This document shows positions 2,898 through 26,008 of a DNA stretch of 39,859 nt, piece by piece. A program made the position numbers and the translations under genes. The notes under the pieces are model-generated. The model searched no databases. It was given only the letters and a program-made list of their open reading frames with translations, and was not told the DNA's origin. Source of the stretch: a virus; IMG/VR virus record IMGVR_UViG_3300042453_005387, positions 1 to 39,859 of that record; one strand, given 5' to 3'. Each line of letters opens with the position of its first letter. Within the stretch, counting starts at the first letter, position 1.

Positions 2898-2929
2898 TTC
2901 ATTTTTTTATTTATAACCAGTTTTATAAG

Positions 2930-3039: not shown

Positions 3040-3131
3040 AAAGACTCGGCGCAGCCTCGTAATTTTAATCAAAATTTTGAACACCAGTCAATGCTTTTTT
3101 TATTTTTTTTTTAGGAGACCTAATAAAACTT

Positions 3132-3761
3132 TCAACAGCATACACCTATGGGCAAATATTTTGAAAAAGATTCTGTAATTTTATTACAGATAGTGGTCTG
3201 CTTTACGGCAGGGGTTGCTCCTATTGGAACAACCTTCTGACTGTATCTTATTGTTACTTCAGCGCCTCTATCAAATGGGTCAAATATTACAAAACTTATT
3301 TTCTCTCCCTTCATCAAATATATTGGAGGTATTTCGACAAATACGTTTTTAGATATTTCTGTACTCTCCAGGTAATTATTCAATAATTCCTGGAGACTTC
3401 TCATTGATTCTAATATTTTTTCATTTTCATTTTTTTCTTTTCTTTTTGTGTAAGCATCAATCCATTCATCAAATTCTTTTATTTGTTTAGATGCAGGTTT
3501 TTTGTTTATAAAAAGTTTTGCATCAAATTGATCTGCCGGTACTTTTGCGTTTACAATGGTAAACGTTTTTTTATTTTTTATGTTTTCATTTTTGGCTTTA
3601 TCTTTTTTGCTGGGTTGCACTACATCGATACAATTATTTTTGGGGGGCCTGCCCCTCTTTCTCTTTACAGTTGGGGTAGTCTGAACTATTGCCTGTTTCC
3701 CCGCCACATCAATCTTTCTAGGCCTTCCCCTTTTTCTTTTTTGCTGGATTTCGGGTACCAT
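3132..3761 (-). CDS. AT-hook DNA-binding protein
   Basis: This 209-residue protein carries two classic AT-hook motifs near its N-terminus, KRGRPRK (about 10-16) and KRGRPPK (about 35-41). Each is a GRP core in a basic context, which binds the minor groove of AT-rich DNA. A lysine-rich linker follows. The C-terminal two thirds contain a charged helical segment (about 85-115) and a probable beta-rich domain (about 135-200) that I do not recognise. In an AT-rich genome such a protein could act in DNA architecture, replication or transcription. The next upstream gene ends 7 nt before its start. Confidence 0.7.
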   Translation of the reverse strand: MVPEIQQKRKRGRPRKIDVAGKQAIVQTTPTVKRKRGRPPKNNCIDVVQPSKKDKAKNENIKNKKTFTIVNAKVPADQFDAKLFINKKPASKQIKEFDEWIDAYTKRKEKNENEKILESMRSLQELLNNYLESTEISKNVFVEIPPIYLMKGEKISFVIFDPFDRGAEVTIRYSQKVVPIGATPAVKQTTICNKITESFSKYLPIGVCC

Positions 3762-3768
3762 ATATATG

Positions 3769-4443
3769 TTAATTTTCTTTATCTTTTTTATAAAATTTAT
3801 CTAGATGCCTATCTAGATGCCCATTTGAAACCATAAATAATTCAACCTGAGCTTTTAACAATTCTTTAGATTTATCAATGTAAATTTTATATCCTTCATT
3901 GTCTTTGTCCTGATTGAATGCATCATAAGCTGTATCATACACTAATGAAACTGTTTGTATGTCTGTATTTACTATTTGTGTATTTAAATCTATGTGAATT
4001 AAATCTTTTTTGTTTTTGCGTGTAATCAAATCATACTCTTTAATTAAGTCTGAGGCAACTTGCGGGACAAAGAAACAGCAAAAAACTATTCCAATATCGT
4101 CTTGAAGTATTTCGTCAATCTGTTTACACTCTTCTGGATATTTTTCCATTATGGCCTTAGACGACTCTTTTAATTTTTTGTCGGAAGTATTCCCAATACC
4201 AGTTTTTTTAATATTTTTTACAATCTGTCTTATTTGAGATAAAACATTCTCAACCGCAAATGGACGGTTAACATCTTTCTCAATTAATTCTTCAAAATTT
4301 TCAATAATTTGACACACCATATAGCTGTGCAATAGGTCATATTTATCTAATGACTTAAAGATAGTTTCTGATGTCTCAAAAGAGAATACTGCGCTAAAAA
4401 AACTGCTCTTGTAGTCAGTAGCTAAAATATAGTTTTTTTTCAT
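3769..4443 (-). CDS. Hypothetical helical protein
   Basis: An unrecognised 224-residue protein, predicted mostly alpha-helical with alternating charged and hydrophobic residues. It has no membrane segment and no metal or nucleotide motif. A segment around 120-132 (VFCCFFVPQVASD) is unusually hydrophobic. It probably shares a transcript with the AT-hook gene, 7 nt downstream. The ATG at 4443 has no Shine-Dalgarno sequence. Confidence 0.6.
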   Translation of the reverse strand: MKKNYILATDYKSSFFSAVFSFETSETIFKSLDKYDLLHSYMVCQIIENFEELIEKDVNRPFAVENVLSQIRQIVKNIKKTGIGNTSDKKLKESSKAIMEKYPEECKQIDEILQDDIGIVFCCFFVPQVASDLIKEYDLITRKNKKDLIHIDLNTQIVNTDIQTVSLVYDTAYDAFNQDKDNEGYKIYIDKSKELLKAQVELFMVSNGHLDRHLDKFYKKDKEN

Positions 4444-4840
4444 GCCTTGATTTTGGTTTTCCTATTGCTTTTGTCAATTTTATATTTCACAAAAACAATA
4501 GGAGTTAATTTACACATTTTTTTTATTTTTAAATTTTTTTGTTTTTTTTAGGTTATACCTACCTAAGCCATAAAATAAATAGATTACTTTACTGCGATGC
4601 GAAACAAAACTTATTAGCCCCTGGGCATAACTCCTGCGGCTTGCGTCAATACCTCTCTCATCTGGTGATCAATCCAGTCACGGTATCGAACTAATAAAAT
4701 GTTTGTATTTTTTTGCTGTATGTTTATTTTGCTAGGCAAAAAGCCCCTTATTCTTTTACCCCTTTATTTCGGGACCAACCTGCTTATCATTAATACGAGT
4801 TTTTCAGGGGTACAGGTTTTCACTGATTGTTACAGTGATT
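4444..4840. other. Intergenic gap with possible gene remnant
   Basis: This gap of about 400 nt has no complete gene. The left half is T-rich. Around 4614-4700 composition becomes richer in G+C, and the minus strand reads as a protein-like C-terminal tail ending MREVLTQAAGVMPRG and a stop at 4614. In that frame the next in-frame stop upstream is near 4765, so at most a short ORF or a relic of a lost gene exists. A 6-bp hairpin (TCACTG/CAGTGA, about 4820-4838) lies just beyond the stop of the 338-residue gene and may mark its transcript end, but no clear U-tract follows it. Confidence 0.4.
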
Positions 4841-5857
4841 TTATCCCTCAGCAAGAATGTCTTCTTCAACTACTTCAGAACTGCTTTTTGTCTGGCAATT
4901 CTCAAATGGACTTGTAGTCCAATAATGAGGGAAAGTCGAAAAATTAATATTATCGACTTCGCTCACAGTAAGTGGAGTTCCACTAATCGCAATGAGCAAC
5001 GGAACTATCCCCCGCTTCATTGTAGTCATCTTTAGCTCAACCCTATCTTCATCGCTTTTTCCACTCAAATTATATAAAAAGGAAACAAGCTTCAGCAGCT
5101 TGTCTTTTTGCCTTTGATACTGATTTGTCCGGATAAAGATTTTTTGCGATGCATCAGTTGTTTTATCTTTATTGCTGGAGTCAAGTGCTTCAACATGAGC
5201 AAGCACTCCGTCATGTAATTTAACCATAAATTCCTTGATTATCGCTGGCTCATTTATTGCGCCAACTGTATTCACGGCGCTAATAAATTGCTGTGCCAGG
5301 TCTGGAGCTGGTGCATTCAGGCCTGTCAAGAAACGAGTTATTAAAGCTCTTTTAATAACATATATTGGAAATTTGTGTGACGTCGTGTTTTCATGCTGAA
5401 GTTCAACCCAGTCAGAATCTAGTGCCGATATGGTGAATGGCACAGTTTCGTCCAATTTTTGAATGTGCTGTGAATTTGCTAGCACGTTCATCGACTCTAA
5501 CGGATTCTTTGCTATGTGGAAAAAGTTATTGTTCTTTTTCTGTTTTGGTAGAAATCCACCAAAGGCATTTTGCTTAAGTGTACCATATGGACTATAGTAT
5601 CCACCTGGCTTAAGAGATAGACCGCTAGTTGCCCAATTTATAGCAGCCTGCTCAAATGCAGCAGTTTTAATTGGTGGTGCCCCACGATAAATAGTTATAA
5701 GTTTCGCGAGGCCATTTTTTACCCGATATGCTGCACTTTGATAGTTATCTCCATCTTTTATCGAGTATCCGATAATTACATTTTCTTCTGGTACTAATGT
5801 AGAGCCCTTGATAAGGGATCCAATTTTATTATGCACTATTGAACGACTAATTTTCAT
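4841..5857 (-). CDS. Hypothetical protein
   Basis: An unrecognised 338-residue protein. It is bounded on its 5' side by a clear terminator (5895-5932) and followed by a gap, so it is a single-gene unit, unlike most of the window. It has an N-terminal beta-rich part, a central glycine/tyrosine turn-rich stretch (about 80-100) and a helical C-terminal half with an acidic tail (EVVEEDILAEG). No catalytic signature is recognised. Its isolation and slightly different base composition suggest an independently acquired accessory gene. Confidence 0.65.
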   Translation of the reverse strand: MKISRSIVHNKIGSLIKGSTLVPEENVIIGYSIKDGDNYQSAAYRVKNGLAKLITIYRGAPPIKTAAFEQAAINWATSGLSLKPGGYYSPYGTLKQNAFGGFLPKQKKNNNFFHIAKNPLESMNVLANSQHIQKLDETVPFTISALDSDWVELQHENTTSHKFPIYVIKRALITRFLTGLNAPAPDLAQQFISAVNTVGAINEPAIIKEFMVKLHDGVLAHVEALDSSNKDKTTDASQKIFIRTNQYQRQKDKLLKLVSFLYNLSGKSDEDRVELKMTTMKRGIVPLLIAISGTPLTVSEVDNINFSTFPHYWTTSPFENCQTKSSSEVVEEDILAEG

Positions 5858-5894
5858 TATTAATTAATGTTGTTGTTATATGTTGGTTTGTTTA

Positions 5895-5932
5895 ATAAAA
5901 AAGGCCACTCAACATTTGTCGAGTGACCTTTA
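5895..5932 (-). terminator. Rho-independent terminator
   Basis: On the minus strand an 11-bp stem (AAAGGTCACTC/GAGTGGCCTTT, one G-U pair, about 10-nt loop) runs into a T-tract (TTTTTTATT). It follows the stop of the 187-residue gene and precedes the start of the 338-residue gene, so it ends the long recombination operon. The G-U pair fits transcription from the minus strand. Confidence 0.8.
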
Positions 5933-6027
5933 AGACTTATTAAAAAAATAAGCCATAAATAATAATAATTATTTACATTATATTATGGCATATGCATGTG
6001 TTTTTTTTAGTACCCTATTTGGCTAAA

Positions 6028-6591
6028 TTAAAGCACTCCAGAAGGATTAAAAAACAGTCTTTTTGAGTTTGGAATATTTAATGAAATCAATAAGTTATTG
6101 ATTTTCGCAAATGTATGTGGAGGAACATTTGCTAAATATTCAGCTTCCCATGAGTTTTGCTGCCTCGATTGTTTGACTAATCTACAAAAAGAATTTATAT
6201 TTCCTTTTTGTTTGATCAAAATAACGGAATTATTTTTACTGATCTGCACAACGGTTGCATTAAATTCAGGGTCAGCCTCTGACACCTTATTGGACAGTAT
6301 TTGCGCATTTGACTCAACGTCCTCAACTTGCAGCTCTGGAGTTGGCTCTGGAGTTGGCTCTGGAGTTGGCTCTGGAGTTGGCTCTGGAGTTGGCTCTGGA
6401 GTTGGCTCTGTGGTAAAAATTATTGCTGGGTCATTTGTCGGATCGTATTCAGAATCTGAAGTTACCGGAACATCAACATTATTTAAGTTTGATTCTGCTT
6501 CTGTATCTTGAAGTTCAGAATCTTGCGAAACATTTTTTTCGTCAAATTCTGTGTCTTGGTCAGTTTCCGATTTTTTTCTTTTTTTACTCAT
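6028..6591 (-). CDS. Hypothetical protein with Thr-Pro-Glu-Pro repeats
   Basis: This 187-residue protein has an acidic, disordered N-terminal half. It begins with a basic SKKRKK stretch and contains a TPEP tandem tract at about residues 60-85. A compact C-terminal domain (about 95-187) shows alternating strands and a helix (for example 'VVQISKNNSVILIKQKG' and 'YLANVPPHTFAKINNLLISL'). PT/PE-rich repeats like this usually act as flexible linkers. I do not recognise the folded part. It is the last gene before the terminator at 5895-5932. Confidence 0.65.
   Translation of the reverse strand: MSKKRKKSETDQDTEFDEKNVSQDSELQDTEAESNLNNVDVPVTSDSEYDPTNDPAIIFTTEPTPEPTPEPTPEPTPEPTPEPTPELQVEDVESNAQILSNKVSEADPEFNATVVQISKNNSVILIKQKGNINSFCRLVKQSRQQNSWEAEYLANVPPHTFAKINNLLISLNIPNSKRLFFNPSGVL
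6333..6410. repeat. 12-bp tandem repeat, about 6.5 copies
   Basis: The 12-bp unit GCTCTGGAGTTG is repeated head to tail about six and a half times with no base changes. It encodes the TPEP tract of the 187-residue protein. Being in phase with codons, copy number could vary without a frameshift; the exact identity of the copies suggests recent expansion by slippage. Confidence 0.9.
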
Positions 6592-6608
6592 ATTTTTAAA
6601 TTTTATTA

Positions 6609-6989
6609 CTATTCCTTGTTTTGTTCAATATAATAATCTATTGCGTCCTTTATAATTCGCTGTACAGATTTAAGTGATTTTTCTCTACCAATTGGTTTAA
6701 CCCCTTTTTCAGTGAGTTTAAAAATCTCTATATCAAATGTAAAATTTTTTTCATTTTCTTCTGTTTCATTATCTAATAATGCTACTAGACCTTCTATATC
6801 TTCTTCGTCATCCTCATCATCTTCATCTTCTTCATCATCTTCACTATCTATGACCGCATTGACTTTAATAATACATGGGTATGAAGACAAGTTTAATATA
6901 TATTCTATATCTTTATCGTCAACGCACAATAAAAACCTTGGAATGCTGTCAGATTCCGAGAAATTGTTTAGAAGGTCTATGCTTTTCAT
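6609..6989 (-). CDS. Hypothetical acidic protein
   Basis: An unrecognised 126-residue protein with a very acidic central run (about 48-70, mostly Asp and Glu). The N-terminal part may form a short alpha/beta unit, and the C-terminal helix is KSVQRIIKDAIDYYIEQNKE. Its ATG overlaps the TAA of the resolvase gene upstream (TAATG), so it is translationally coupled to it. Acidic phage proteins of this size can be DNA mimics or chaperones, but nothing here decides this. Confidence 0.6.
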   Translation of the reverse strand: MKSIDLLNNFSESDSIPRFLLCVDDKDIEYILNLSSYPCIIKVNAVIDSEDDEEDEDDEDDEEDIEGLVALLDNETEENEKNFTFDIEIFKLTEKGVKPIGREKSLKSVQRIIKDAIDYYIEQNKE

Positions 6990-7486
6990 TAGAAATTTTT
7001 TCTTCTCATATATTCTGCCATCAATAAAGAATCGGCATCATTTTTAAATTTTTCGTATAAATATGGAAATAATCTTTGCCCAACAAGCAAAGATGCAGTT
7101 TTTGTGTCTGGACCCTTCACTCCATGCGGCAACATTTCTTTTTGCCACTCTTTCGAATCTATAAACCTATATGGTAAGTTAAGGTCTTCCATTAAGCATT
7201 CTTGAGCTTCTAGGATTCTTAATCCAGACGCAGTAGCTTTGAATCTTCCTGGGTTAACCATTGGCCTCTCTATGCAAATAACCGGTAAATATCCATTTAT
7301 CCAGTTTTCTAAAATATCTTTAGTTTTTTGCCTATCTAACCTATTTATGTATGATATTGTTTTAGTATAATTTATACATTTTTTTACAGGAGTTATTTTA
7401 TATTCGGCCTGTTTATTGAGCCAAACAGCACTAATATTCCCAATTCCATTATCCCAGCCAATCCAAACCTTTTTAATTTCATCCAT
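6989..7486 (-). CDS. RuvC-like Holliday junction resolvase (RNase H fold)
   Basis: A 165-residue protein with the RuvC acidic tetrad in order: Asp12 in 'WIGWDNG', Glu73 in 'VICIERPM', and Asp150/Asp152 in 'NDADSLLMAEY'. Length and spacing match RuvC and phage RuvC-like nucleases. The family cuts four-way junctions and branched DNA. In a phage this would resolve recombination and replication intermediates before packaging, and it lies in the same operon as the RecA-like recombinase. It overlaps the genes on either side by 8 nt and 1 nt. Confidence 0.85.
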   Translation of the reverse strand: MDEIKKVWIGWDNGIGNISAVWLNKQAEYKITPVKKCINYTKTISYINRLDRQKTKDILENWINGYLPVICIERPMVNPGRFKATASGLRILEAQECLMEDLNLPYRFIDSKEWQKEMLPHGVKGPDTKTASLLVGQRLFPYLYEKFKNDADSLLMAEYMRRKNF

Positions 7487-8051
7487 ATAATTTATTTTCT
7501 ACAAAATATTTAATTGGTATTACTACAGACCCGTGACCAGTCATTGAGGGAATGCATATATATGGAACATATATTTGTTCGATAATTGAATCAGTTGCTG
7601 AAACATATATAGTGTCATTAGTTTGGTTAATATGAATTAACGCTACATTGTAGTCAAACTTTACATAGTTTTTATATTTTTGCAACATTTCATTAACTCT
7701 ATTTGAGGTAATCTCTGAGAACGAAGGGTTATTTTCTCTGCTGATATATTTATTAAATACATCAGATAACTTACTTATTACAAAGACTCGTTCATCGGAT
7801 GAATCAAAAACTACTTTACGTTTGCCATATAAATTTTCATATCTTTCTGAAATTGTTTCATTCTCAAAAATTAGTTTATTTAACTCTTGGAATGGATCAT
7901 CTTGGTTATTAATAAACCTGTTCGGTATCCCCAGCTTCAGTTTTGACGACAGTATCTGGGCCGCTTTCAGTTTTGTTTTCTGTGTTTTCTTGTCCTGATA
8001 TGCCTGGTCCGACTCGTGCAGGTATGTCGCTATCTGATCCAAATGACTCAT
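7479..8051 (-). CDS. Hypothetical protein overlapping the recombinase gene
   Basis: An unrecognised 190-residue protein. Its first 47 or so codons (ATG at 8051) overlap the last 143 nt of the RecA-like gene in another frame. The next Met is deep in the protein (about 109), so unless an unusual start is used the overlap is real. The N-terminal helix-rich segment is hydrophilic and the C-terminal half looks beta-rich. Its position between recombinase and resolvase suggests a recombination accessory role, which is inference from context only. Confidence 0.6.
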   Translation of the reverse strand: MSHLDQIATYLHESDQAYQDKKTQKTKLKAAQILSSKLKLGIPNRFINNQDDPFQELNKLIFENETISERYENLYGKRKVVFDSSDERVFVISKLSDVFNKYISRENNPSFSEITSNRVNEMLQKYKNYVKFDYNVALIHINQTNDTIYVSATDSIIEQIYVPYICIPSMTGHGSVVIPIKYFVENKLYG

Positions 8052-9168
8052 TTTTTACTTTTCTTTCATAAGTTAATATAACATCTGTATTTATTATATC
8101 TAATTCTTGCTGAAATTTAGATATATTTTCTGGGGAGTGTGCAAATTGGTAAAACTCTTCAGCAGTGAGTGGACCAACATTCATTTCTTTGCTGTAAAAT
8201 TTATTTCCTTTTTGCTCCTCAAAACCGCATATACTGGATAATGCCAGTAATTTTGTGGTTTGCTCAACAAAGTCAAATGAGTTTCCCCATTTTACGTTAT
8301 AGGTAAATTCTCGCCATGGATGACGTAATTTATTTTTCTTCCAAACACCTTTTGACTTAAAGCCAGACTTTTCGCCATCATCTTTAGTTGCTGCATTCCT
8401 TTTTAATACAACCCAGTATGTAGCGGCAAATGGAATAGCTCTGCCACCAGATCCAATCACTTTTTCTATTTCTGGGATCATACCACCAAAGCTGGTATCT
8501 ATTTTGTCCCTGCCCTGGTTTAATACCACCCAGAGTGTATTTGTTTCTTTTAGTTTTCCTTTGATTAAATTAGTTGCGTCTTTAATAACTTTCGCTGAAC
8601 CACCAACCCTACCTTGAACAAAGTTTTCTTCATCTTTTTGTGCTCGCTGATCTGTGGCCCCAGCTATACTATCTAAAATTAATACTTTAGGAATCTTTCC
8701 CTCTGGGTCAATCTTTAGGAATAAGTTTAGCTGATCTATCGTGATAGACATTGCGTCTTCAATGCTATCTGGATGAAAAATTCTAAATTGTTTCCAGTTG
8801 TCATTAGTTAAATAGTTTTTCATATGAGCTGTGGACCCTGCTTGCTCTGTCTCTACCATAGCAGCAATCCCACCAGACTCCATGCAAAGATTAGCTAACC
8901 AAAGCGCAAGACTTGTCTTTCCTGCCCCCTCGAAACCCATTATCTGCATAATCCTGCCAAGGGCCAGGCCATGGCGACCAAGGCTCCACTGCATACCTAA
9001 ATCTGGAACATATAAATATTTTAAGCTTTCGTCTTCCTCACATACAGAACTTACATAATCTTTGCCGTATTTGTCAGCAACAGATATAGCACTTTCGTGA
9101 AAGTACTGATCAATGGGATTAGTAAATGACTCACTCTCTTCGGTTTTTATTTTTTTGGGTCTAGGCAT
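7909..9168 (-). CDS. RecA/UvsX-like strand-exchange recombinase
   Basis: This 419-residue RecA-family ATPase has a Walker A motif 'GFEGAGKT' (78-85), an 'ETEQA' segment at about 106-110 where RecA proteins have their catalytic Glu, and Walker B 'VLILDS' (162-167). An L1/L2-like region follows with 'LWVVLNQGRDK' and a GSGGRAIPFAA stretch that fits the DNA-binding loop. The C-terminal 60 residues are acidic and disordered and overlap the next gene. The protein would form filaments on ssDNA and drive strand exchange for recombination-dependent replication and repair. The ssDNA-binding protein gene lies upstream and the resolvase gene two genes downstream. Confidence 0.9.
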   Translation of the reverse strand: MPRPKKIKTEESESFTNPIDQYFHESAISVADKYGKDYVSSVCEEDESLKYLYVPDLGMQWSLGRHGLALGRIMQIMGFEGAGKTSLALWLANLCMESGGIAAMVETEQAGSTAHMKNYLTNDNWKQFRIFHPDSIEDAMSITIDQLNLFLKIDPEGKIPKVLILDSIAGATDQRAQKDEENFVQGRVGGSAKVIKDATNLIKGKLKETNTLWVVLNQGRDKIDTSFGGMIPEIEKVIGSGGRAIPFAATYWVVLKRNAATKDDGEKSGFKSKGVWKKNKLRHPWREFTYNVKWGNSFDFVEQTTKLLALSSICGFEEQKGNKFYSKEMNVGPLTAEEFYQFAHSPENISKFQQELDIINTDVILTYERKVKNESFGSDSDIPARVGPGISGQENTENKTESGPDTVVKTEAGDTEQVY

Positions 9169-10484: not shown

Positions 10485-13247
10485 TTATTGTGTTATATCT
10501 GCTAGATCGTATATTTTTATATTATCTGCTAGAATGGATTTTCTTTGGTTATATATGTTTATTCTGCCAATTACTAAAGCAATTTTATCTGTCTCTAGTT
10601 TATCTTTTATATCTTGGTATTTCTTGGGGAAACATGTAATACTTATTTGATGTTCTTTGTTTCCTATGTCAATGAAGCACATATCTTCTTGGTTTTTTGT
10701 CTTTATCTTTTTTACCGCCAAGATTAGCCCAGCAGTTGTGACCGATTGACCTTCACCAAGCAGCATTATAGTTGGAATATCATCGCATGGGATCCTAACC
10801 GTACTATTAAAATAGTCAACAATATCTGGACTGCCAATACACAAACTTTTGCTCTGCATAAGTTCTATCTCGGCTAATGTATACTTCTTAATTTCTTTTT
10901 CTTTTCTTACTGTTAAATAAAAAGAGTTCAGCCTGTTTCGTTTATCAGCTTTTGTGCCGTCGCCAGCTTCAGGCATTTTATCTAGCGCACCAGAAAATAT
11001 TAAAGCTGACACAACTCTTTTATTTATAATTTTTTTATCTATTCTTTCATAAAAATCTACAAAACTTTTGTAAGGAGATTTTTCAAATATTTCTTGCGAT
11101 GCATTTTTTACCCCCTTAATCATTGTAAGTGGATAAACTATTTTTTGATCTTCATCATCAATTATATAAAAATCTACATGGCTAAGATTTACATCAGGAG
11201 ATTTAATAACATCACAAAAATATTTAGCATTAGCCTCTAGGTCTTCATGCGTAGAGTTTTGCAATATAGACGTCCACCATTCAAGTGGGTAATGTGATTT
11301 TAACCACATACAAATATATGCTGTATATGAATATGCTACGCTATGACTTAGGTTAAATGCATAGTTACTACTAGATCTACATAAACTGACGAACGCCGAA
11401 ATTTGCTCCTGCGTCCAACCCCTTTTTTCTAGCCTGTTCCTTATGTCTGGCAAAATCTCGTTCATTTTAGAAAGTTTTTTCTTTCCAATTATTTCACGAA
11501 TTTCATCGGCTTGCTCCGGAGTATAATTACAAGATTTCTGAAACATAGCCGATATTTGCTCTTGAAACAAAACAATACCATGTGTCGTAGACAATATATC
11601 TTTCAGATCTTCGTGCAAATAAAACACTGGTTTACTCCCCTTACGTCTTTGAATCCAAAGGTCTATAAGAGTAGTGTCCATTTTTGTTTCAGGGTCTGCC
11701 ATTAGGGCGTACATTGTCCCAGGCCTACATGCTGCAGTTATTGCAGCGAGATCTAATATAGTTTTGGGTTTTATTTGTTTGCATACTTTAGTTGGGATTG
11801 GTCCATTAAACTGGAATACAGTTTCTGTGTTTCCCTTTGCAAACTCCTTAAAAACGCTAATCTCTTCTGGAATATTGTATGTATCTATTTCTTTGTTGTG
11901 TCTTTCTTTTATTAATTTAACACAATTTCTAATATCTTTTAGCGTATTTAACCCAAGTAGGTCAAACTTCACTAATCCCATAGATTCTACAGCTTCCATT
12001 GTAAACTGTGTGCATTCTTCACCGCTGATTTCACATACTGGTACTATTTCATTTATGGGGGAGTCAGAAAGACAGTATGCACTTGCATGTCTGCCTAAAG
12101 ATTTTGGAATCCCTATTACTTGCTCAACCAGAGATTGAACAGCTGGATTTTCGTCAAAAAATTTATCTAATGTAGAATTATTTTCAATTTCGCCTAAGTG
12201 ATGACCCTCGTCATCATCCCAACCATAAAGCCATTTTAATAAATCACTAAAACCTTGTGGGACATTACTAATTGTTTTACAAACATTATCTACAAGAAGT
12301 TTATTTACTTCATTATTTTTAGTATCTAGCACAACTCTAGATACATCTCGTATAGCGCTTTTTACCTTGGTTGTACCAGTTGTGCATATTCTTACGAATC
12401 TGTCACCGTGCTTTGCTTTTAGAGCTTCTGCAACTTTTTCTGGCTCACTAAAGTCTATATCTATATCTGGAAGTTTGCCTCTATTAATCCTCCCAGTAGA
12501 CAAAAATCTCTCAAAAGATAGATTATATTTTACTGGATCGATATGGGTAATTTTAAGTAGATACGCAAGTAAGCACCCCCCAGCACTACCCCTACCGGCT
12601 CCAATCTCAATATTTAAATGCCTAGCCATTTCACAAATTTCATACAACGCCAGAAAATATGGAAGTAAATTTATTTTTCCGTTATCGGCTATTGTATCTA
12701 TCTCTTTGCTTAATCTATCCTGATACTCCTTGGTGTGGACCATCCTTTGATTTTTATCTATGAGTAGGTATATATATATCTTAAGTTTTTGTTCTTCAGA
12801 GTCCGCTAGTTCTATTACCTCTCTTGGTAAATTTACTCCAGGCAAATGATATTTTTTATTGAAAGAAATCTTTTCACACATTGAGGCAAGAACATGATTA
12901 TTCTCTACCCCTTCCTGGAAGTGGCTCGAAAAATCTGTACCATGCAGGTCTACCCATTTTGTCCAGGCTACATTTGAGTTCATTTGATGATAGTTGGTAC
13001 TGAACCTTAAGCCACTATCTTCATCTCTTCCATTTTGAAGCAGCAAATCTTGTACTATTTTCTGCTCTTTGCTTACAAAATGTGCATCTAAAGTCAACAA
13101 AAGAGGTATATTATACTTTCTAGCAATTTTCATTATCAGCTCATTGCCTGATTTTTGTAGATCGCCAATAGGAGCAGATGGAGTGCACTCTTTTCTAACA
13201 AAAACTGGAGAAGAAGTTTTCCTCCATGTTATATTTTTTAATCTCAT
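10485..13247 (-). CDS. dnaE: DNA polymerase III alpha subunit, C-terminal part (polymerase)
   Basis: A 920-residue protein covering the end of the PHP domain and the whole catalytic region of bacterial replicative C-family polymerases. Residues about 20-75 resemble late PHP ('ECTP...GDLQK', 'LLLTLDAHF'). The palm has 'GAGRGSAGG' (about 217-225), catalytic aspartates in 'LPDIDIDF' (Asp263/Asp265 among them) and the third in 'VKFDLLGL' (about 432). Fingers, a helix-hairpin-helix-like region and an OB-like C-terminus follow. Its ATG lies one base after the stop of the gene holding the N-terminal PHP segment, so the two should be translated together. An intact alpha subunit joins these in one chain; here the break falls inside PHP. 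Confidence 0.92.
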   Translation of the reverse strand: MRLKNITWRKTSSPVFVRKECTPSAPIGDLQKSGNELIMKIARKYNIPLLLTLDAHFVSKEQKIVQDLLLQNGRDEDSGLRFSTNYHQMNSNVAWTKWVDLHGTDFSSHFQEGVENNHVLASMCEKISFNKKYHLPGVNLPREVIELADSEEQKLKIYIYLLIDKNQRMVHTKEYQDRLSKEIDTIADNGKINLLPYFLALYEICEMARHLNIEIGAGRGSAGGCLLAYLLKITHIDPVKYNLSFERFLSTGRINRGKLPDIDIDFSEPEKVAEALKAKHGDRFVRICTTGTTKVKSAIRDVSRVVLDTKNNEVNKLLVDNVCKTISNVPQGFSDLLKWLYGWDDDEGHHLGEIENNSTLDKFFDENPAVQSLVEQVIGIPKSLGRHASAYCLSDSPINEIVPVCEISGEECTQFTMEAVESMGLVKFDLLGLNTLKDIRNCVKLIKERHNKEIDTYNIPEEISVFKEFAKGNTETVFQFNGPIPTKVCKQIKPKTILDLAAITAACRPGTMYALMADPETKMDTTLIDLWIQRRKGSKPVFYLHEDLKDILSTTHGIVLFQEQISAMFQKSCNYTPEQADEIREIIGKKKLSKMNEILPDIRNRLEKRGWTQEQISAFVSLCRSSSNYAFNLSHSVAYSYTAYICMWLKSHYPLEWWTSILQNSTHEDLEANAKYFCDVIKSPDVNLSHVDFYIIDDEDQKIVYPLTMIKGVKNASQEIFEKSPYKSFVDFYERIDKKIINKRVVSALIFSGALDKMPEAGDGTKADKRNRLNSFYLTVRKEKEIKKYTLAEIELMQSKSLCIGSPDIVDYFNSTVRIPCDDIPTIMLLGEGQSVTTAGLILAVKKIKTKNQEDMCFIDIGNKEHQISITCFPKKYQDIKDKLETDKIALVIGRINIYNQRKSILADNIKIYDLADITQ

Positions 13248-13248
13248 T

Positions 13249-14103
13249 TTATGTAATTATAATTTTTCTTGTCGAAGTATTTTCAGGCTGATTATCTTCG
13301 TCACTGTCATCAATACTGTCAATCGACATTTTTATTATTCTATCAGAAATTGGGTGATCTTGCGGTCTTTTTGTTACAGAGCAATATATTTCTGAAACTT
13401 TTTTTTCAAAGGCCTCTTTTACTGTTATTTTTCCTATCTCTGTTTCAATAATATCGGTGCCCTTGAATGTATAAGTAAAACCACTTTCGCTATCTACCTG
13501 AAATACATCCTTAACCTCCCAGTCTCTGTCAACTTTGTGTGGCATCACTTCAGCGAACAGTTTGTCTTGGAAAATTTCCATTAGTCTATAGGCATTGTAT
13601 GCAGCCATATCTTTTTCTTCTCTAAGATAAGACTTTACTATAGGGCCTTCTATACAGCCACTTCCACATATTATATCTTCTCTGTATTGTTCTAAATCTT
13701 CCCACCTTACTCTTGGCTTTGGCTGTCCAAACTTTCTAACCACTCTTCCTGGGCCCCAAGATGCATTTGATATAGAAATTAAATTATTATATCCATTTTC
13801 ATTTTGTGCCCATAAAGTTAAATGAAAGTAGTCAAATTTTCTTAAGCTCGGATTAAATATATATTCTTCGTGTGGAGAAAGATATATTTCAATACCTGGT
13901 ATTCCTTTTATATTTGACTCTGAAGATTTATTTATTAAATCATATAAACCAAGAACATATCCATGATCTGTGCAACTACACGCCTCAAGACCATTTTCTA
14001 GACAGTATTTAATGTATTGTTGTATATCAGATACGCCATCCATCAAACTATAAGTTGTATGAGTGTGTAATGGTAAAATATTTAAGTTTGTAGGATTTTT
14101 CAT
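13249..14103 (-). CDS. dnaE: DNA polymerase III alpha subunit, N-terminal PHP segment
   Basis: A 284-residue protein whose first 195 residues are the start of a DnaE PHP domain: 'LHTHTTYSLMDG' (12-23), 'CTDHGYV' (44-50), 'GIEIYLS', and 'LFAEVMPHKVDRDW' at about 182-195. The next expected PHP block is in the following gene. Residues 196-284 are an extra tail not expected in DnaE; it contains a 'GTDIIETEIGKITVKEAF' stretch vaguely like the start of a Hint/intein fold but without the N-terminal Cys/Ser needed for splicing. The stop (TAA) is followed by a single A and the ATG of the polymerase part. The 5' side abuts the structured array at 14116-14984. Confidence 0.85.
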   Translation of the reverse strand: MKNPTNLNILPLHTHTTYSLMDGVSDIQQYIKYCLENGLEACSCTDHGYVLGLYDLINKSSESNIKGIPGIEIYLSPHEEYIFNPSLRKFDYFHLTLWAQNENGYNNLISISNASWGPGRVVRKFGQPKPRVRWEDLEQYREDIICGSGCIEGPIVKSYLREEKDMAAYNAYRLMEIFQDKLFAEVMPHKVDRDWEVKDVFQVDSESGFTYTFKGTDIIETEIGKITVKEAFEKKVSEIYCSVTKRPQDHPISDRIIKMSIDSIDDSDEDNQPENTSTRKIIIT

Positions 14104-14115
14104 CTTTTGTGTTTT

Positions 14116-14340
14116 AAATTTCTGCGTAGCGAAGCGGTTCGTGGCCCACCAACTGCGGCACCGGATGTGCCGAAGGACTTGAGCGACTTGCGACTTGGAT
14201 CACTGGGCTCCAGTGATGCCAAGTCTAGCAAGCAGCGAAAGTCCGGAGGATGATCTATAGTGTGCCGAATGGTGGGGCACTTCCGTTCTTGTTTTAATAT
14301 ATGTTTACGTTGCAGTTCCTGCAACAAAAGCCAGAAATTT
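14116..14340. ncRNA. Structured element, copy A of three
   Basis: A 225-nt element closed by a perfect 9-bp stem (AAATTTCTG 14116-14124 with CAGAAATTT 14332-14340). Just inside are CG on the 5' side and AAAAGC on the 3' side. A 7-bp hairpin with TTC loop (14309-14325) precedes the 3' box. The core is a stem of 10 pairs in 11 (14141-14151/14270-14280) enclosing a 6-bp hairpin (14156-14172) and a long hairpin (14175-14244), in which GGACTT/AAGTCC closes a nearly continuous 20-bp helix (14187-14232). Its 5' edge lies 12 nt from the dnaE N-terminal start codon. The stop-poor minus frame through it is explained by G+C-rich structure, not by coding. Confidence 0.75.
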
Positions 14341-14357
14341 ATTTTTATTTTTTTAAA

Positions 14358-14746
14358 AGCTCTGCGAAATCGCTGAAGGCGATTGTTCCGGCCCCGCAGT
14401 GCAGATCCTGAAGACAGATGGGTCCAGGCCTGCTGCGGACAGCTCGTGAGCTGCACACGAGCTGTGCAGCAGGGCCTGGACCAGAGGTCTTCAGGATAAG
14501 CCCCGCAACTAGCCGGTTGCAGCTGCTGCAAGCAGTAGCAACCGGATAGTAAGGGGACGGGGCCAGGACTTGGACGTACCTGCGGAAGGGGGCCCGAGAC
14601 ATACTGAGGGTACGTCCCGTCGTCGAAAGCCTTCGACGACGGTACGTCCCGAGGTAAGTCGCGGGCCAACTGAAGCAGAGATACGCCAGTCATGGATACA
14701 TGTACATTGTAAAACGATAAGGATCCCTTATCTTTAAGCCAGAGCT
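14358..14746. ncRNA. Structured element, copy B of three
   Basis: A 389-nt element closed by a 7-bp stem (AGCTCTG 14358-14364 with CAGAGCT 14740-14746). It has the same inner CG and AAGC boxes as copies A and C. A 6-bp hairpin follows the 5' box (14368-14384) and a 7-bp, 3-nt-loop hairpin precedes the 3' box (14716-14732). Inside is a giant hairpin (14405-14497) with 11-bp, 16-bp (one bulge) and 9-bp segments. There is also an 8+5 bp hairpin (14513-14545), a GGCCCCG/CGGGGCC closing stem (14390-14396/14558-14564), and an 11-bp hairpin (14617-14642) flanked by two copies of GGTACGTCC, either of which can pair with GGACGTACC (14572-14580). Confidence 0.75.
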
Positions 14747-14758
14747 ATTTTTTTATTT

Positions 14759-14984
14759 TCTCTTGCGATTACAACTGTAGAATACAGTTGTCTGTCTGCC
14801 GCCCACCGCTCACACGCGAGGATATTTTCCAGGTACCCTCTGGGGAACCAGGCTCGCTCGCGGGCCAGGTTCCTCCAGAGGGGGTACCTGGAGAATAACG
14901 CGAGCTGTGAGAGCCCCAGTGGGCGCTCCTGTACGACTTGATGTCTATGTATGACGAGATTCTCTCGTCTTTTAAGCCAAGAGA
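14759..14984. ncRNA. Structured element, copy C of three
   Basis: A 226-nt element closed by a 7-bp stem (TCTCTTG 14759-14765 with CAAGAGA 14978-14984), with the inner CG and AAGC boxes. An 8-bp hairpin follows the 5' box (14771-14791) and a 7-bp TTC-loop hairpin precedes the 3' box (14953-14969). The core is a CGCCCAC/GTGGGCG stem (14800-14806/14919-14925), then CTCACA/TGTGAG, then a long helix centred near 14858 whose outer 15 bp (14823-14837/14883-14897) include one U-G pair on plus that would be C-A on minus. This weakly favours a plus-strand RNA, antisense to the replication operon. It ends 9 nt before the stop of the 82-residue gene. Confidence 0.75.
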
Positions 14985-14992
14985 TTTATTTG

Positions 14993-19985: not shown

Positions 19986-21782
19986 TTAAAACTCTATTGT
20001 TTGCCTGAAATATGGGATCAAAGATCTTTCATGTGTAACCATCAATACTTGAAGGTTGTTTGCCTCAGATAATTCCGTTATATTTTCAATTATTGTCTTA
20101 AAGTTTGCTATGGTTTCCCTGTCTAGCCATGTTGTAGGCTCATCTAGTACGATCATATTTACTCCCGTAGAGAACGTCTCACAGGAGGCAAACCTGAATG
20201 CAAGAGATAAAACAACTTTCTGCCCACAAGATAAATCAGCAGCTGGTCGATGCTTGTCTTTGAAAATACAAATAAATTCATTATCTTCAGCAACTTTTAC
20301 TTTGTATTCTGCGCCAAAACTAATCAAATAATCATTTATTGCGCAACACATTTTTTGCATCTGTGCATTTACATATTTTCCACTGATATTATCATGTCTA
20401 AATATATCTCTTATTCTGGATATTCGAGACTCATGAATCTTCGTGCCAGTAAAAATGCTTTTTATTTTTTTTGCTTCAATTGAATTATCTAGAAGCGTGT
20501 TAATTTGGTCTTTTAGTTTTTCGTTAGTTGAATCAAGTATTTTAATTTCTGAATTGAGTTTATTTATGTCTGAATCTTTTTGCCTGTAATAATTTATGCC
20601 ATCAAGATATTTTTCTTTTGAGTATTTTGGAAACTTTCTTTCATCAAAATTTTTTTGAATTTTTTCTAGTTTATCTTTGTTGTATTTTATTGAGGATTTT
20701 AAATTATATTTATTAGACTCATAAGATGTTATGTTCGATTCTTTTTTTCTTATACTTAATTTTACTTCTTGTGATTCTAAAATTAAATTTGATAGATCTT
20801 CATTTACTTTACTTAATCTAAGGGAGAATTCTTCAACTTTTAATGAGTCTAGTTCAGAATTACACAATGGACAACATTCTGACTTAGCGGTATTGGTATG
20901 CTTACATACAACACTCAACAAATCTGATTCAGTTTTCTTTGATCCAATAAGTACATCAATTTTTGCTAGCCTATCCTTTAGGGAATCTATTTCATCTCTT
21001 TTTTCTGCTGGTGGCTTTAACTCTTGAAGCAAAATTTCATCTTCTTCGATTTTCTTTGTTATTAGTGATATCTCTGATGTTATTTTTTCTTTTTCACTAG
21101 ATTCTTTATAATTTTTTATTATTAACTCTATATCTATTCCACTTAACTCCTGTGTGATAGAATCTATTTCTGATTTCTTTATTTCTATTTCTTTATCGTT
21201 TTCTGATACTATTGCCTCTAGTTCTTTTATTGAGTTTCTTGTTTGATTTTCATCAATCAAGGCAGGATAACTGATGTTGGATTTCCATTGTCCAAGCAAC
21301 AACTCAAGCTTTGCAGCCTTTTCAAGTCCAAAATACTTTTGCAGCATTTTGTTCCTTTCAGTTGGCCTTCCAAATAATATACCTAGTATATCTGTTTGGC
21401 TCACGAATACCATATTGGGTAAAAAAGATTTATCGCAGCCAAGTATTTCAAGTAATCTTGAGTTTACATCGTCTGCTCCCTCAATAAATTCATCCTTGTA
21501 TTTCAAGGTGCATTTATTTGAATCTAGCGATCTATCTACTATAAATTCAGATCCACGAATGTCACCCTCCAGGTAAATATTGCCTGTAGTTTGTCCAAAG
21601 GTTATTATATCTTTTTTCTTCTTTTTTCCGAATTCGCCTGTTATACCAACAGATATTGCATTCGCAAAATTACTTTTGCCTGACCCATTTCTACCTATTA
21701 TTCCAATTATCTTTTCGTCAAAAGAAACGTCTACATTTTTATGTTGAGCGAAGTTATTTAGTTTAACCCTCTTTATTTTCAT
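19986..21782 (-). CDS. SbcC/Rad50/gp46-like recombination ATPase
   Basis: A 598-residue SMC-like ATPase. Walker A 'GRNGSGKS' (30-37) is near the N-terminus. A coiled coil (about 160-290) leads to a zinc hook 'CPLC' (304-307), with the return coiled coil (about 315-440) after it. The C-terminal head has the ABC signature 'LSCGQKVVLSLAF' and Walker B 'MIVLDEPTTWLD'. At under 600 residues it is T4 gp46-sized, not the >1000 of bacterial SbcC. With the Mre11-like partner it would process DNA ends and hairpins to load the recombinase. Its start overlaps the end of the nuclease gene by 20 nt. Confidence 0.92.
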   Translation of the reverse strand: MKIKRVKLNNFAQHKNVDVSFDEKIIGIIGRNGSGKSNFANAISVGITGEFGKKKKKDIITFGQTTGNIYLEGDIRGSEFIVDRSLDSNKCTLKYKDEFIEGADDVNSRLLEILGCDKSFLPNMVFVSQTDILGILFGRPTERNKMLQKYFGLEKAAKLELLLGQWKSNISYPALIDENQTRNSIKELEAIVSENDKEIEIKKSEIDSITQELSGIDIELIIKNYKESSEKEKITSEISLITKKIEEDEILLQELKPPAEKRDEIDSLKDRLAKIDVLIGSKKTESDLLSVVCKHTNTAKSECCPLCNSELDSLKVEEFSLRLSKVNEDLSNLILESQEVKLSIRKKESNITSYESNKYNLKSSIKYNKDKLEKIQKNFDERKFPKYSKEKYLDGINYYRQKDSDINKLNSEIKILDSTNEKLKDQINTLLDNSIEAKKIKSIFTGTKIHESRISRIRDIFRHDNISGKYVNAQMQKMCCAINDYLISFGAEYKVKVAEDNEFICIFKDKHRPAADLSCGQKVVLSLAFRFASCETFSTGVNMIVLDEPTTWLDRETIANFKTIIENITELSEANNLQVLMVTHERSLIPYFRQTIEF

Positions 21783-22872
21783 TTATTTGATTTTGTAAAT
21801 CCTGTTTTAATACATCGTTTACAAACTCCGGTTTGTAGTTTTTCCAGATATCTTCAATTATTTTAACATCTCTTTTTTCTAGTGTTTTATCCTTTTCAAC
21901 CATTTCTATAAAATCCATTTCATCATCAATTACTGGACTATCTTCTGTTGTTACGTTAACTTTCTTTTTTGTATTCTTGTGAAAATAAAAACATCTAGAG
22001 CTACAATCTGATATTATTTTTTTGTTTATTTCCTCTATATTAGATGAATTTACAGAATCATACCTAAATATGTTAAAGTCTTCGTTTTTTATTAAATCAA
22101 GGGTTTTATCAATAGACTCAAAGTCGTGAACTACTGTTTTTTGAATTGGAGTAAAATTAATAGATTCAATTGATTCTATTGTGTTAGATCTTATATCAAA
22201 AGACATTGATATATATTTAAAGTCATTTATTGGATCACATAACCTTAAGAAATCTATATTTCCTGGATAAGCTATTACACATGAATTTACTTTCATTTTT
22301 TTATGAACATGTAAATCACCAAGAGCTAAATATTTACATTTATGAGACAATATATTTATGTCATCTACATCTAATTCTGGCTTCATAATGGATGCCAAAA
22401 ACCCGATAGTAGATTGATGCATAACAACAACATCTAAGTTGTCGGGAATTTTTTGTATTACATCTTTTAAGGAACTTTTTCTGTGATGATTCAATGAAAC
22501 AATCTTAAGCGGGAGCACGTCTTCACTAATCAAAAACGCCGACCCATCTTCGGATAAAGCTGATTCTGATAAATTTATTGCACCCAGCTCAATCCATTGA
22601 GTTTGTTTCCTTACTTTATCATGATTACCAGTACACGCCACAACTTTACACCCAGAATCATTCCATATATTACACATGGTAATCCAAGTTTTTACGTCAT
22701 CTGGAGATGGAATATTAGAATCAAAGACGTCTCCAGCCACAATAATTAAATCATGGTCTATAGATGTTTCTTTAGCTAATTTTATATTTGTTTCTCTAGC
22801 ATACTGTTGTCTTTCTGATATCCCGTATTGAGAACTGCCAATATGTAAGTCCGCTAAGTGAGCTATTTTCAT
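21763..22872 (-). CDS. SbcD/Mre11/gp47-like nuclease
   Basis: A 369-residue metallophosphoesterase of the Mre11 family. The motifs appear in order: 'HLADLHIGS' (5-13), 'VAGDVFDS' (about 46-53), 'TGNHDK' (about 81-86), and 'LALGDLHVHK' further on, which supply the two-metal site. The C-terminal third (about 250-369) is variable and charged and probably contacts the SbcC/Rad50 partner encoded next. The pair acts as exonuclease and endonuclease on double-strand ends. Such activity can cut palindromic hairpins, which is notable given the long inverted repeats at 14116-14984. Confidence 0.92.
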   Translation of the reverse strand: MKIAHLADLHIGSSQYGISERQQYARETNIKLAKETSIDHDLIIVAGDVFDSNIPSPDDVKTWITMCNIWNDSGCKVVACTGNHDKVRKQTQWIELGAINLSESALSEDGSAFLISEDVLPLKIVSLNHHRKSSLKDVIQKIPDNLDVVVMHQSTIGFLASIMKPELDVDDINILSHKCKYLALGDLHVHKKMKVNSCVIAYPGNIDFLRLCDPINDFKYISMSFDIRSNTIESIESINFTPIQKTVVHDFESIDKTLDLIKNEDFNIFRYDSVNSSNIEEINKKIISDCSSRCFYFHKNTKKKVNVTTEDSPVIDDEMDFIEMVEKDKTLEKRDVKIIEDIWKNYKPEFVNDVLKQDLQNQINENKEG

Positions 22873-22875: not shown

Positions 22876-23352
22876 TTAATATTCATCTATTAAAAATAGT
22901 TCTCCAGTCTCGGCTTCAATCTCTGAGTCTAGTTTCGCTAATAGCGGAGCTGATACGGCACTAACCTCAAATATTCTATCTGAGCCACAATCTTTGTCTA
23001 TAACCCTAATATTTACTGGAGATGTTTTACCGTCAGTTCTCCATATCGCAGATATTACTCCGTCACATACTTCTATAGTTACAATTGATTCAATATTATT
23101 AAGTCTAGACAAAGTAACCGAACTAATCTTATCTTTCGGGAACTCCATTATTTTTCCAGGCAAATAGTCAGAAGTTTGATGGTCTATTGAAATCATTTCA
23201 ATAATTTGACCCACAAAATTCTTTTCATTTGATGGCTTTTTATTTAAAACCCTTACAGAGCAACATAAATTTTTTCCTGGCTGACTTTTTGGAGTATTAA
23301 CTATTACTGAGTCACCTGGATTGATTTGTATTTCTTCATTTTTGTTTTGCAT
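22876..23352 (-). CDS. Hypothetical beta-rich protein
   Basis: An unrecognised 158-residue protein with an alternating strand pattern (SVIVNTP, KNLCCSVRVLN, VGQIIEMISI, SIVTIEVCDGVISAIWR) and an acidic C-terminal tail. No catalytic or metal motif. It lies 3 nt upstream of the Mre11-like gene and 3 nt downstream of the reverse transcriptase gene, in a tightly packed operon. It is thus one candidate for an RT partner protein, although position alone does not establish that. Confidence 0.6.
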   Translation of the reverse strand: MQNKNEEIQINPGDSVIVNTPKSQPGKNLCCSVRVLNKKPSNEKNFVGQIIEMISIDHQTSDYLPGKIMEFPKDKISSVTLSRLNNIESIVTIEVCDGVISAIWRTDGKTSPVNIRVIDKDCGSDRIFEVSAVSAPLLAKLDSEIEAETGELFLIDEY

Positions 23353-23355: not shown

Positions 23356-24975
23356 TTAATTAGTGTCGTCGTTGTTGTTTTCTATTAGCTCTATCCTCCT
23401 AATTGATGAGGTAATTGGTGGATGTATGCTAGATAGTGTATTGGATAATTTATCCGCTTTTTTTGGGCTTGCTGTAGCAATAAAATTTATTTTTCCATTA
23501 ATTTTTGATATTATACTATTAAAATGTGCATGATTTTTAACCTTATTTAATTTTACTTTTTCCTTTAGAGCAAATATCTCTGATCTTACATTTTCAAAGT
23601 ATGCAGGAGGTATAGTTGGCTTTCCTGAGTTTATTATGTAACCAAGGATTTCCATCCGCCCGCCAGTACCAATTACTTTGCTTTTATTTTTATTTATTTC
23701 AAACCCGTTATTTTTTAGCAAACTAGATACCCTATATATGAATATATTTATAAATTTTTTGCCAAACCTTTTTGGCCAAGTAAAAGATAAATCATCTGCA
23801 TATCTTGTATAAACTGCCCCATTTTCTTTAGCTAAACTGTCTAGCTTGTAGTCCAGTAGTTTAAAACAAATATTTGTAATCGCTGGACTTGCTGGAGACC
23901 CCTGCGGGAGAAATATGTCTCCTGCATTGATCATCTCACCTATATTAAACAATTGTTTCAGTATTTCAGATAAATATTTTTTATCTACAATTTTTAACTT
24001 AAGCGCATCAGTCATTATTACCTCGATTAAAATAGACACAACATGTTTTAGGATTTTTATTTCCTCAGATATTTTATTTAACTCTCTGTTTTCTCGACTA
24101 GCTGGGCTAAATCCATAAAAAACGGAGGGAGAAAAAAATAATCTGTTATTTGCTCTAATTTGTTGACGTATATCTCTTGAATACCAACTATCGACATAAG
24201 AATTATGAGCATGAGCCGGTGAATCTTCTCTTAGTCTCTGAAGAATGGTTTGATAAAGTTTCTTAAAATCAATAAATGAGCAGACCACCATTGATACTAG
24301 CTGACATATATTGCAATTATTTAATTTTACTGTACATAACTCCAGTATTCTTTCAATGTCTTCGTCTATGATGCCATGTGCCATCAAGCTTTTTTGCATA
24401 TCTTTTTTGTTAAAACTTCCAAAAAAGTTTTTAATATCAAGATTTACAAGAAGCTCTGGTTTTTTGTTATAAAACAAGTGATAATTTGCACAATCAATAG
24501 CTGATCTATTTTTTGCAAAACCAAAACATTGAGTATGTGGCCTAAAGTTATTTAATTGATCAGATATATTAGATTGCACAGCTTTTAGCTCATTGTCTGG
24601 AGCCAATATTATCCTGTGGTTTTCTTTTGCTTTTATTATTTCGTCTCCAATAAATGAAATTAATCTATGGTAATAACTTGGAAGTAAACTTTGTCTATTC
24701 CTTCTAGTATCTCTTCCGTAAAAAATAGAGTCTCTTATGAAAGATCTTGTTTTTTTGGGTAAATCATTTTTATTATCTATGTCTTTTATAATTAAATTGT
24801 AGTCATGCACAATTAAATTACATAAACTGCCAAAGCGTGAAAAAGATGAGTTATCGTGACAAATAACCTTATCAAAAAATAAGTTTTCTATAGACTTGGA
24901 ATTATTGTTGTCAATCCTTCTATTAGTTTTTTTAATGCAAAAAACTCTATAAGGCAACTTTATTTCATTCTTCAT
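23356..24975 (-). CDS. Retron/group II-like reverse transcriptase
   Basis: A 539-residue RT with an intact palm. The 'GFAKNRSAIDCANYH' block (152-166) matches the region ahead of motif A in retron and group II-type RTs. Motif A has Asp180 in 'NLDIKNFF', the fingers/palm block is 'LPQGSPASP' (356-364), and motif C is 'RYADDLSF' (Asp394/Asp395). 'GFEINKNKSKV', 'ILGYIIN' and 'GKINFIA' follow, as in retron RTs. About 170 residues separate motif A from LPQG, clearly longer than the compact retron core, so an insertion is present. No endonuclease or maturase domain is seen. It is embedded in the replication operon, its ATG overlapping the upstream stop. It is not DGR-like (no LPxGxxTSQ). Confidence 0.88.
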   Translation of the reverse strand: MKNEIKLPYRVFCIKKTNRRIDNNNSKSIENLFFDKVICHDNSSFSRFGSLCNLIVHDYNLIIKDIDNKNDLPKKTRSFIRDSIFYGRDTRRNRQSLLPSYYHRLISFIGDEIIKAKENHRIILAPDNELKAVQSNISDQLNNFRPHTQCFGFAKNRSAIDCANYHLFYNKKPELLVNLDIKNFFGSFNKKDMQKSLMAHGIIDEDIERILELCTVKLNNCNICQLVSMVVCSFIDFKKLYQTILQRLREDSPAHAHNSYVDSWYSRDIRQQIRANNRLFFSPSVFYGFSPASRENRELNKISEEIKILKHVVSILIEVIMTDALKLKIVDKKYLSEILKQLFNIGEMINAGDIFLPQGSPASPAITNICFKLLDYKLDSLAKENGAVYTRYADDLSFTWPKRFGKKFINIFIYRVSSLLKNNGFEINKNKSKVIGTGGRMEILGYIINSGKPTIPPAYFENVRSEIFALKEKVKLNKVKNHAHFNSIISKINGKINFIATASPKKADKLSNTLSSIHPPITSSIRRIELIENNNDDTN

Positions 24976-26008
24976 TTTCTATTTCAATTGATCTTGATAG
25001 TGTTCTTACTATTTCTACGTTATTTGAGTCGTCTATTGTATCCTCTGAGCCAGAAAGCTCTATAGCTCTTTTTATTACCAGCATTTTTTCTGGATTTTTC
25101 TCTATTTCAGCAACGTCATTTTTTACGTCCTTAACTATCCTAGATAATACAGCTTCTAGGTTACATGAATCCACTTCATCCTTTTTCCAGCTTGATACAG
25201 AAGTAATCGAATTACATGCACCGTTCAGTATTTTTTCTACTTCTGGATCATTAAAAAGATTTATTTGCTTTAATTCATTTAATCTTTCAACAAATGATTT
25301 AACGGTTCTAATATTTACGCAATGCTTGCCATTTCTAATAGCATTTACTACAGATTCTGTTGCTTCAATAATATGATTTCTTATTTGAAGACCAGCTTGA
25401 AACACTAATTGAGCAGCCTTTTCAGAAAGATGATTTTTAGCATCAACAGCTATTTCAGCTATTTCTGTCTGTGCCCAAGAATACAATGTCCATGAGTAAT
25501 TAAACTTATGTATAAGATTATCTGCGGGTGGATAAAATGCATCTAAATATCCAATGTGTTCTGGATATTTTTCGTTGAATTTAGATATTTGTTCTGAAAC
25601 AATTTCTGGGTATTTTTCAAGAAAATCGTCTCGCATCTTAAACATACACTCTTTTTGATTGTTTAAGAAATTCTTTAACTGAGGGTAAGCGTTTTTAGGT
25701 ACAAACCTAGCTCCCCTCATTCCTGGAACCCTGTAAGAAATTCTTTCCATGAAATTACCGAGCCTAACTCTAAACGAAGAAAATTGTGTTGTGTATTTTC
25801 TTGGAATGAGCCATTTATATCCAGGTTGATAAAATTCACTTTCTTCCTTTACTCCAAGCACCTTTTGATCTTCTGGGGTTTGCCTGACCTGGCCGCTCCA
25901 AAATCCAATACTAACATTTATAAGGGCCCCATGCTTAAATATATCGGAGGACAGTTTTGAAGCCCATGCTATATCTTTGTCTATATTATTTTGTTGTGTC
26001 TGTTCCAT
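24965..26008 (-). CDS. DUF3150-like protein
   Basis: A 347-residue protein. Its N-terminal 130 residues resemble the DUF3150 family: a 'ALINVSIGFWSGQ...TPED' opening, a 'LIPRKYTTQFSSFRVRLGNFM' helix and 'ARFVPKNAYPQLKNFL' leading into a charged helix. The rest is helical, with an acidic C-terminus (IEIENEE). The family has no assigned biochemical role that I know of, but tends to be encoded with AAA+ ATPases in phages and mobile elements. It sits directly upstream of the RT (11-nt overlap) and downstream of the terminator at 26036-26065, so it is the first gene of the RT-SbcCD operon. Confidence 0.65.
   Translation of the reverse strand: MEQTQQNNIDKDIAWASKLSSDIFKHGALINVSIGFWSGQVRQTPEDQKVLGVKEESEFYQPGYKWLIPRKYTTQFSSFRVRLGNFMERISYRVPGMRGARFVPKNAYPQLKNFLNNQKECMFKMRDDFLEKYPEIVSEQISKFNEKYPEHIGYLDAFYPPADNLIHKFNYSWTLYSWAQTEIAEIAVDAKNHLSEKAAQLVFQAGLQIRNHIIEATESVVNAIRNGKHCVNIRTVKSFVERLNELKQINLFNDPEVEKILNGACNSITSVSSWKKDEVDSCNLEAVLSRIVKDVKNDVAEIEKNPEKMLVIKRAIELSGSEDTIDDSNNVEIVRTLSRSIEIENEE

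Follow-up and report, generated by a model that had tools for sequence, protein, structure and literature searches.

A retron-like reverse transcriptase of a large phage and a likely template array encoded at a distance

Introduction

Why an uncultured large phage should carry a reverse transcriptase (RT) among its replication genes, and on what template such an enzyme might act, is the question raised by the DNA of IMGVR_UViG_3300042453_005387, of which the whole stretch analysed, here called the window, comprises 39,859 nt. Retrons are known chiefly as single contiguous bacterial immune units. An earlier note on this DNA had pointed to the RT as an unusual enzyme of the core replication region, but it overlooked a tandem RNA array on the same strand, and the locus likely holds an RT together with its templates instead of merely an unusual RT. 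We put at about 0.78 the probability that the phage RT uses this array as its template, in a retron-like system with a multi-unit template array supplied in trans.

Results

The RT ORF (Table 1) is real and its catalytic motifs are intact. It matches Pfam RVT_1 (E=9e-18), and its translation contains motif A (LVNLDIKNFF, with the catalytic D180), LPQGSPASP at residues 356-364 (LPQG 356-359) and RYADD at residues 391-395 (YADD 392-395). Motif A, LPQG and YADD are unchanged in an alignment of the RTs of three phage lineages, which bears out the YADD and the motif A aspartate read from the window and speaks against a loss of catalytic residues among the relatives. D180 and L356 lie 176 residues apart, in keeping with the roughly 170 residues estimated earlier, and between motifs A and B sits an insert of about 110 residues, which the structure prediction renders mostly as helix and with low confidence in the middle (252-300). 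In the RT of one relative (G004) fewer residues are inserted, and the middle part shows little conservation across the three lineages. The structure model as a whole is of moderate quality (mean pLDDT 65, palm about 80). The gene is under purifying selection (dN/dS about 0.25; values for RT, DUF3150 and SbcD lie at about 0.2-0.3, with synonymous sites close to saturation) and, as had been supposed, the enzyme looks active. Region X reads CANYH, SVNLH and CANFH in the three phage RTs, retaining the histidine of NAxxH with the asparagine altered, as it also is in two validated retrons (PMC6868368), and region Y has EILGY or DIVGY, with ILG or IVG aligned to VTG.

Table 1. Positions of the RT gene, its neighbours and the array units in the window
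Feature	Position	Strand	Length	Basis or details
Retron-like reverse transcriptase ORF	23356-24975	(-)	539 aa	Pfam, PADLOC, NCBIfam, tree, fold matches
DUF3150 protein	24965-26008	(-)	347 aa	PF11348, E=1.8e-8; absent along with RT in G005
158-aa protein, no family assigned	22876-23352	(-)	158 aa	present or absent along with RT
SbcD (metallophosphoesterase)	21763-22872	(-)		next in operon; retained in RT-less lineage
SbcC (SMC/AAA)	19986-21782	(-)		next in operon; retained in RT-less lineage
Three tandem retron-like msr-msd units, leader of dnaE	14115-14987	(-)		fold z, anatomy, covariation, RT co-occurrence
Unit 1	14756-14987	(-)		a1 14978-14987; predicted priming G 14977; msr hairpin 14953-14969; a2 14756-14765
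Unit 2	14355-14749	(-)		a1 14740-14749; predicted priming G 14739; msr hairpin 14716-14732; a2 14355-14364
Unit 3	14115-14341	(-)		a1 14332-14341; predicted priming G 14331; msr hairpin 14309-14325; a2 14115-14124

Judged by profiles, phylogeny and modelled fold, the RT belongs to a divergent clade among retron RTs. For each of the three phage RTs the best 25 PADLOC models listed were all retron RTs, led by RT_III-A for the enzyme of the window (198.5 bits) and by RT_XIII for those of its relatives (161 and 186 bits). The phage RTs are divergent, since a true type XIII RT, that of Tyzzerella, scores 540 bits, whereas their top retron profile scores are 156-198 bits. In a maximum-likelihood tree, in which reference types are few and branches long, the three group together (100/100) on the retron side, with the group II enzymes set apart (94/97). 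The fold comparison was led by the retron RTs Ec83, Ec86, Ec78, Eco2 and Eco8, although the domain arrangement keeps the TM-scores of the solved retron RT matches low; DRT2 was also among the fold matches. The proximity to retron RTs that had been suggested is thus upheld by all three approaches. The proposed proximity to group II RTs is not, because the maturase profile TIGR04416 yields 67 bits against a cut-off of 300 and the tree separates the two; nor does the window contain a group II RNA known to Rfam, in agreement with the earlier view that intron domains are lacking. Assignment to DRT2 or DRT3 was likewise rejected (NCBIfam Drt2 42.6 against a cut-off of 390, Drt3a 33.4 against 200). 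The sole direct repeat found by self-BLAST of the window measures 62 nt at 76% identity, so there is no obvious TR/VR pair of a diversity-generating retroelement in it.

The RT gene is embedded in an operon. The DUF3150 gene lies upstream and shares 11 nt (24965-24975) with the start of the RT gene, while the gene for the 158-aa protein starts 3 nt after the RT and is followed by those for SbcD and SbcC; the synteny of the RT gene holds in three lineages, and both the coupling to a DUF3150-like gene and the SbcC/SbcD operon had been recognised correctly. Neither the DUF3150 protein nor the 158-aa protein matched a PADLOC model, and no known retron-type effector was found in this comparison. 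Their profiles gave nothing convincing against the PDB (colicin A, a weak match at E=0.013), and the structure model of the DUF3150 protein has a pLDDT of 47. The homologue of the 158-aa protein in relative G001 ends in a short collagen-like tail.

The array forms a GC-rich block 8.4 kb downstream of the RT on the same strand, flanked by the primase and 82-aa genes and by dnaE, whose ATG at position 14103 follows unit 3. The array folds far better on the operon strand than 20 shuffled versions (z=-17.5); the opposite strand reaches -15, as expected for palindromes. Each unit opens with a1, whose last three bases are YUG; next come GCU, a 7-bp hairpin closed by a GRN loop, at least one long msd hairpin, CG, and an a2 complementary to a1. 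The a1/a2 inverted repeats span 7-10 bp, and the msr stem has 7 bp with a loop of 3-4 nt in all units, within the limits applied for an msr (1-3 hairpins of 7-10 bp with loops of 3-10 nt). Every msd folds into a long GC-rich hairpin and some into two or three, as in unit 2. The layout described for retrons comprises msr hairpins of 7-10 bp, a1/a2 repeats of 8-30 nt and a stem end adjoining the priming guanosine (PMC6868368). Where the priming site is expected, TGGC (UGGC in the RNA) is invariant instead of the usual TAGC, of which variants are known (PMC6868368). By their sequence, the units have retron msr-msd anatomy with TGGC replacing TAGC. No Rfam family matched the array, a lax threshold yielding only hairpin look-alikes below cut-off, and an ORF at 14100-14693 was dismissed as a chance frame across the hairpins. 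The dnaE gene itself (10485-14103 in the window) consists of two ORFs that overlap or abut, the break falling within the PHP domain and bringing extra residues there; the same holds for G001, G004 and G005 and indeed for every relative examined.

The pairing in the units is preserved by covariation. Among 8 distinct units from three lineages, aligned with the msd excluded and one loop base of unit G1_u3 taken out, 98.3% of 120 cells are paired and 12 of the 15 pairs show two-sided changes. These affect 6 of the 8 pairs of a1/a2 and 6 of the 7 pairs of the msr hairpin, in which all cells (100%) are paired. The covariation score is 0.881, whereas shuffles give 0.246 and slid partners no more than 0.18. 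A motif scan of 1.04 Mb on both strands returned 13 units and nothing elsewhere, with 0 in shuffles; the scan speaks to specificity and is not an independent discovery, because the pattern was derived from the units themselves.

Relatives were retrieved with a terminase query (G001, G002 and G003, which are near-identical and therefore counted as one lineage) and with an AAA protein query (G004, G005 and G006); the RT or DUF3150 sequence used as a query against viral contigs found none. The RT occupies the equivalent place in G001-G004, as do the units (three in G001 and in G002, two in G004, and two whole units in G003, where the contig ends), and the two are 8.4-8.8 kb apart in the three lineages. 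The array is present in every relative where the RT was found. By contrast, two contigs of one sister lineage (G005 and G006) are collinear and keep dnaE, but lack the RT, the DUF3150 gene, the 158-aa gene and the array altogether. Thus, cassette and array go together despite a gap of about 8-9 kb, the joint absence resting on a single lineage. A further contig (G210), found by a DNA pattern search independent of the RT, has three units; it is neutral on the pairing of RT and array, since it starts inside dnaB and the RT locus is out of view. In the more distant AAA relatives L074-L077 no RT was found, nor were there units in the loci read. The RT therefore cannot be called core in the strict sense, being part of a three-gene cassette that is missing from the otherwise collinear operon of the sister lineage. 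The earlier placement in a core replication region, and not in a cargo island, holds insofar as the RT shares an operon with SbcCD, but it does not accommodate the three genes and the array coming and going together between lineages.

The msd bodies are unrelated between lineages. A comparison of G001 with G210 gives identities of about 82% for the genes flanking the array and of 60-74%, with indels, for whole units; a1, msr and a2 are nearly identical, whereas the msd has diverged. Between G001 and G002 there are 12 differences in 53,360 sites, 7 of which lie in the msd of unit 3 (binomial P=4.5e-13, unit 3 having been picked after the data were seen), among them a compensatory change from a G-C to an A-T pair; recombination with a variant could explain this cluster as well as mutation. 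The a1, a2 and msr elements make up a constant handle, while the msd is a payload that changes fast in sequence with its hairpin preserved. That the handle stays fixed while the payload changes points to conflict with hosts or rival phages. A use of the msd as homology donor or guide was rejected, as there is no match of at least 15 nt to the phage's own contig.

Discussion

The array at 14115-14987 is the likely template of the RT. The enzyme probably recognises the units through their shared msr, that is, the UGGC priming site and the 7-bp hairpin with a 3-nt loop, starts synthesis through a 2'-5' branch at the guanosine where the a1/a2 stem ends, and copies the long msd hairpin. The products would be as many as three distinct msDNAs, each perhaps 150-300 nt long. 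The joint presence or absence of RT and array in related phages suggests that small, branched RNA-DNA molecules, whose hairpins differ from one another and evolve rapidly, are produced by the phage. Counting against the use of the array by the RT are the separation of 8.4 kb, unlike validated retrons, the missing VTG, the altered NAxxH and the lack of a known effector type. We speak of a retron-like system rather than a retron, because RT and array do not form an adjacent, compact cassette and neither VTG nor an exact NAxxH is present.

It is possible, though we consider it rather unlikely, that the locus is ordinary anti-phage retron cargo, in which the RT, its msDNA and a toxic effector (the DUF3150 or the 158-aa protein) cause abortive infection by rival phages. 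This scenario overlaps with the one we prefer and differs from it solely in the role assigned. Retrons are indeed known on prophages and satellites (PMC9122126; PMC6868368), and gain or loss of three genes and an array as a set is what cargo should look like. However, no integrase was found in the relative contigs searched, which makes the benefit of host suicide less clear, neither neighbour resembles a PADLOC model, and two or three diverged templates in trans would be an unusual layout.

It is improbable that the array acts independently of the RT, as a cis-acting RNA in the dnaE leader (a riboregulator or a stabilising or processing element) or as a DNA structure for replication or packaging. 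In the window and in G004 it stops about 10 nt short of the dnaE start codon, regulatory leaders often contain long hairpins, and the RT is far away. Yet a1/a2, UGGC and the 7-bp hairpin reproduce the retron msr layout (PMC6868368) in two or three covarying repeats, and the array is missing exactly where the RT cassette is missing, even though dnaE is retained. Least probable is that the RT acts like a DRT/UG or Abi enzyme, with its own template or a protein primer, in which case the A-B insert would be a specialised domain and the array would accompany the RT by chance: the large insert, the lack of VTG and the DRT2 fold match would fit, but the Drt2 and Drt3a scores fall far short, the insert is variable and the array is co-inherited with the RT.

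What purpose an RT with several templates in trans would serve is a separate matter, and a role in conflict between phage and host or between phages has, in our estimation, about even odds. Together with the DUF3150 protein and/or the 158-aa protein, the msDNAs might be directed against rival phages; alternatively, they might serve as decoys for nucleases or DNA sensors of the host. Either protein could be the effector, since both share the fate of the RT. More tentatively, and with the odds against it, the RT and its replaceable array could be a weapon of counter-defence or competition that delivers several fast-evolving msDNAs in trans, constant in their handles and variable in their payloads. 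Perhaps these would keep host retron effectors quiet or titrate host DNA sensors, and one may even speculate that they counter host retrons as decoys or in the manner of antitoxins. If the RT does use the array, a single RT would be able to supply several msDNAs in trans, and msDNA would be at the service of viruses, too, in their arms race with hosts or rivals.

Type III-A and XIII retron RTs share with the phage enzymes the RT core, YADD, LPQG and a region X with its histidine; the phage RTs differ in forming a clade of their own, in the A-B insert, and in having neither VTG nor known effectors. Similar in layout is Retron-Nex1 (Ne160) of Nannocystis exedens, with several duplicated msr-msd repeats and no RT within a kilobase (PMC6868368). 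However, Nex1 resides on a bacterial chromosome, where retention with a distant RT has not been demonstrated, whereas the phage array is compact, has 2-3 units with diverged msds and is inherited with the RT. Phage-borne retrons are also known, such as phiR73/Eco3, and Eco1 and Eco2 in prophages (PMC6868368), but these are single contiguous cargo in integrating elements, whereas the system described here is split, lies in a run of replication genes and comes with no integrase that we could find. We came across no account in the open-access literature of phage genomes that retain an RT and, in trans, a small array of msr-msd units that have diverged from one another.

Several minor observations were made along the way. 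In G001, a GC-rich block at 42.4-48.5 kb was rejected as an RNA candidate, as it encodes collagen-like ORFs; three such tandem GC-rich ORFs of about 700 aa each lie at positions 2263-8685 of locus L013. A match to the Pistol ribozyme exceeds the Rfam gathering score beside a tRNA gene of G001 (L013 14811-14876, at about 54.8 kb). A terminase large subunit of 1014 aa (L034 4435-7479) contains a big insertion resembling an intein with a homing endonuclease. Another large phage (IMGVR_UViG_3300024336_000005, 204 kb) encodes a small retron-like RT of 284 aa (L053 9986-10840), located directly behind genes that resemble those for a JAB-type protease and ThiF/E1 proteins.
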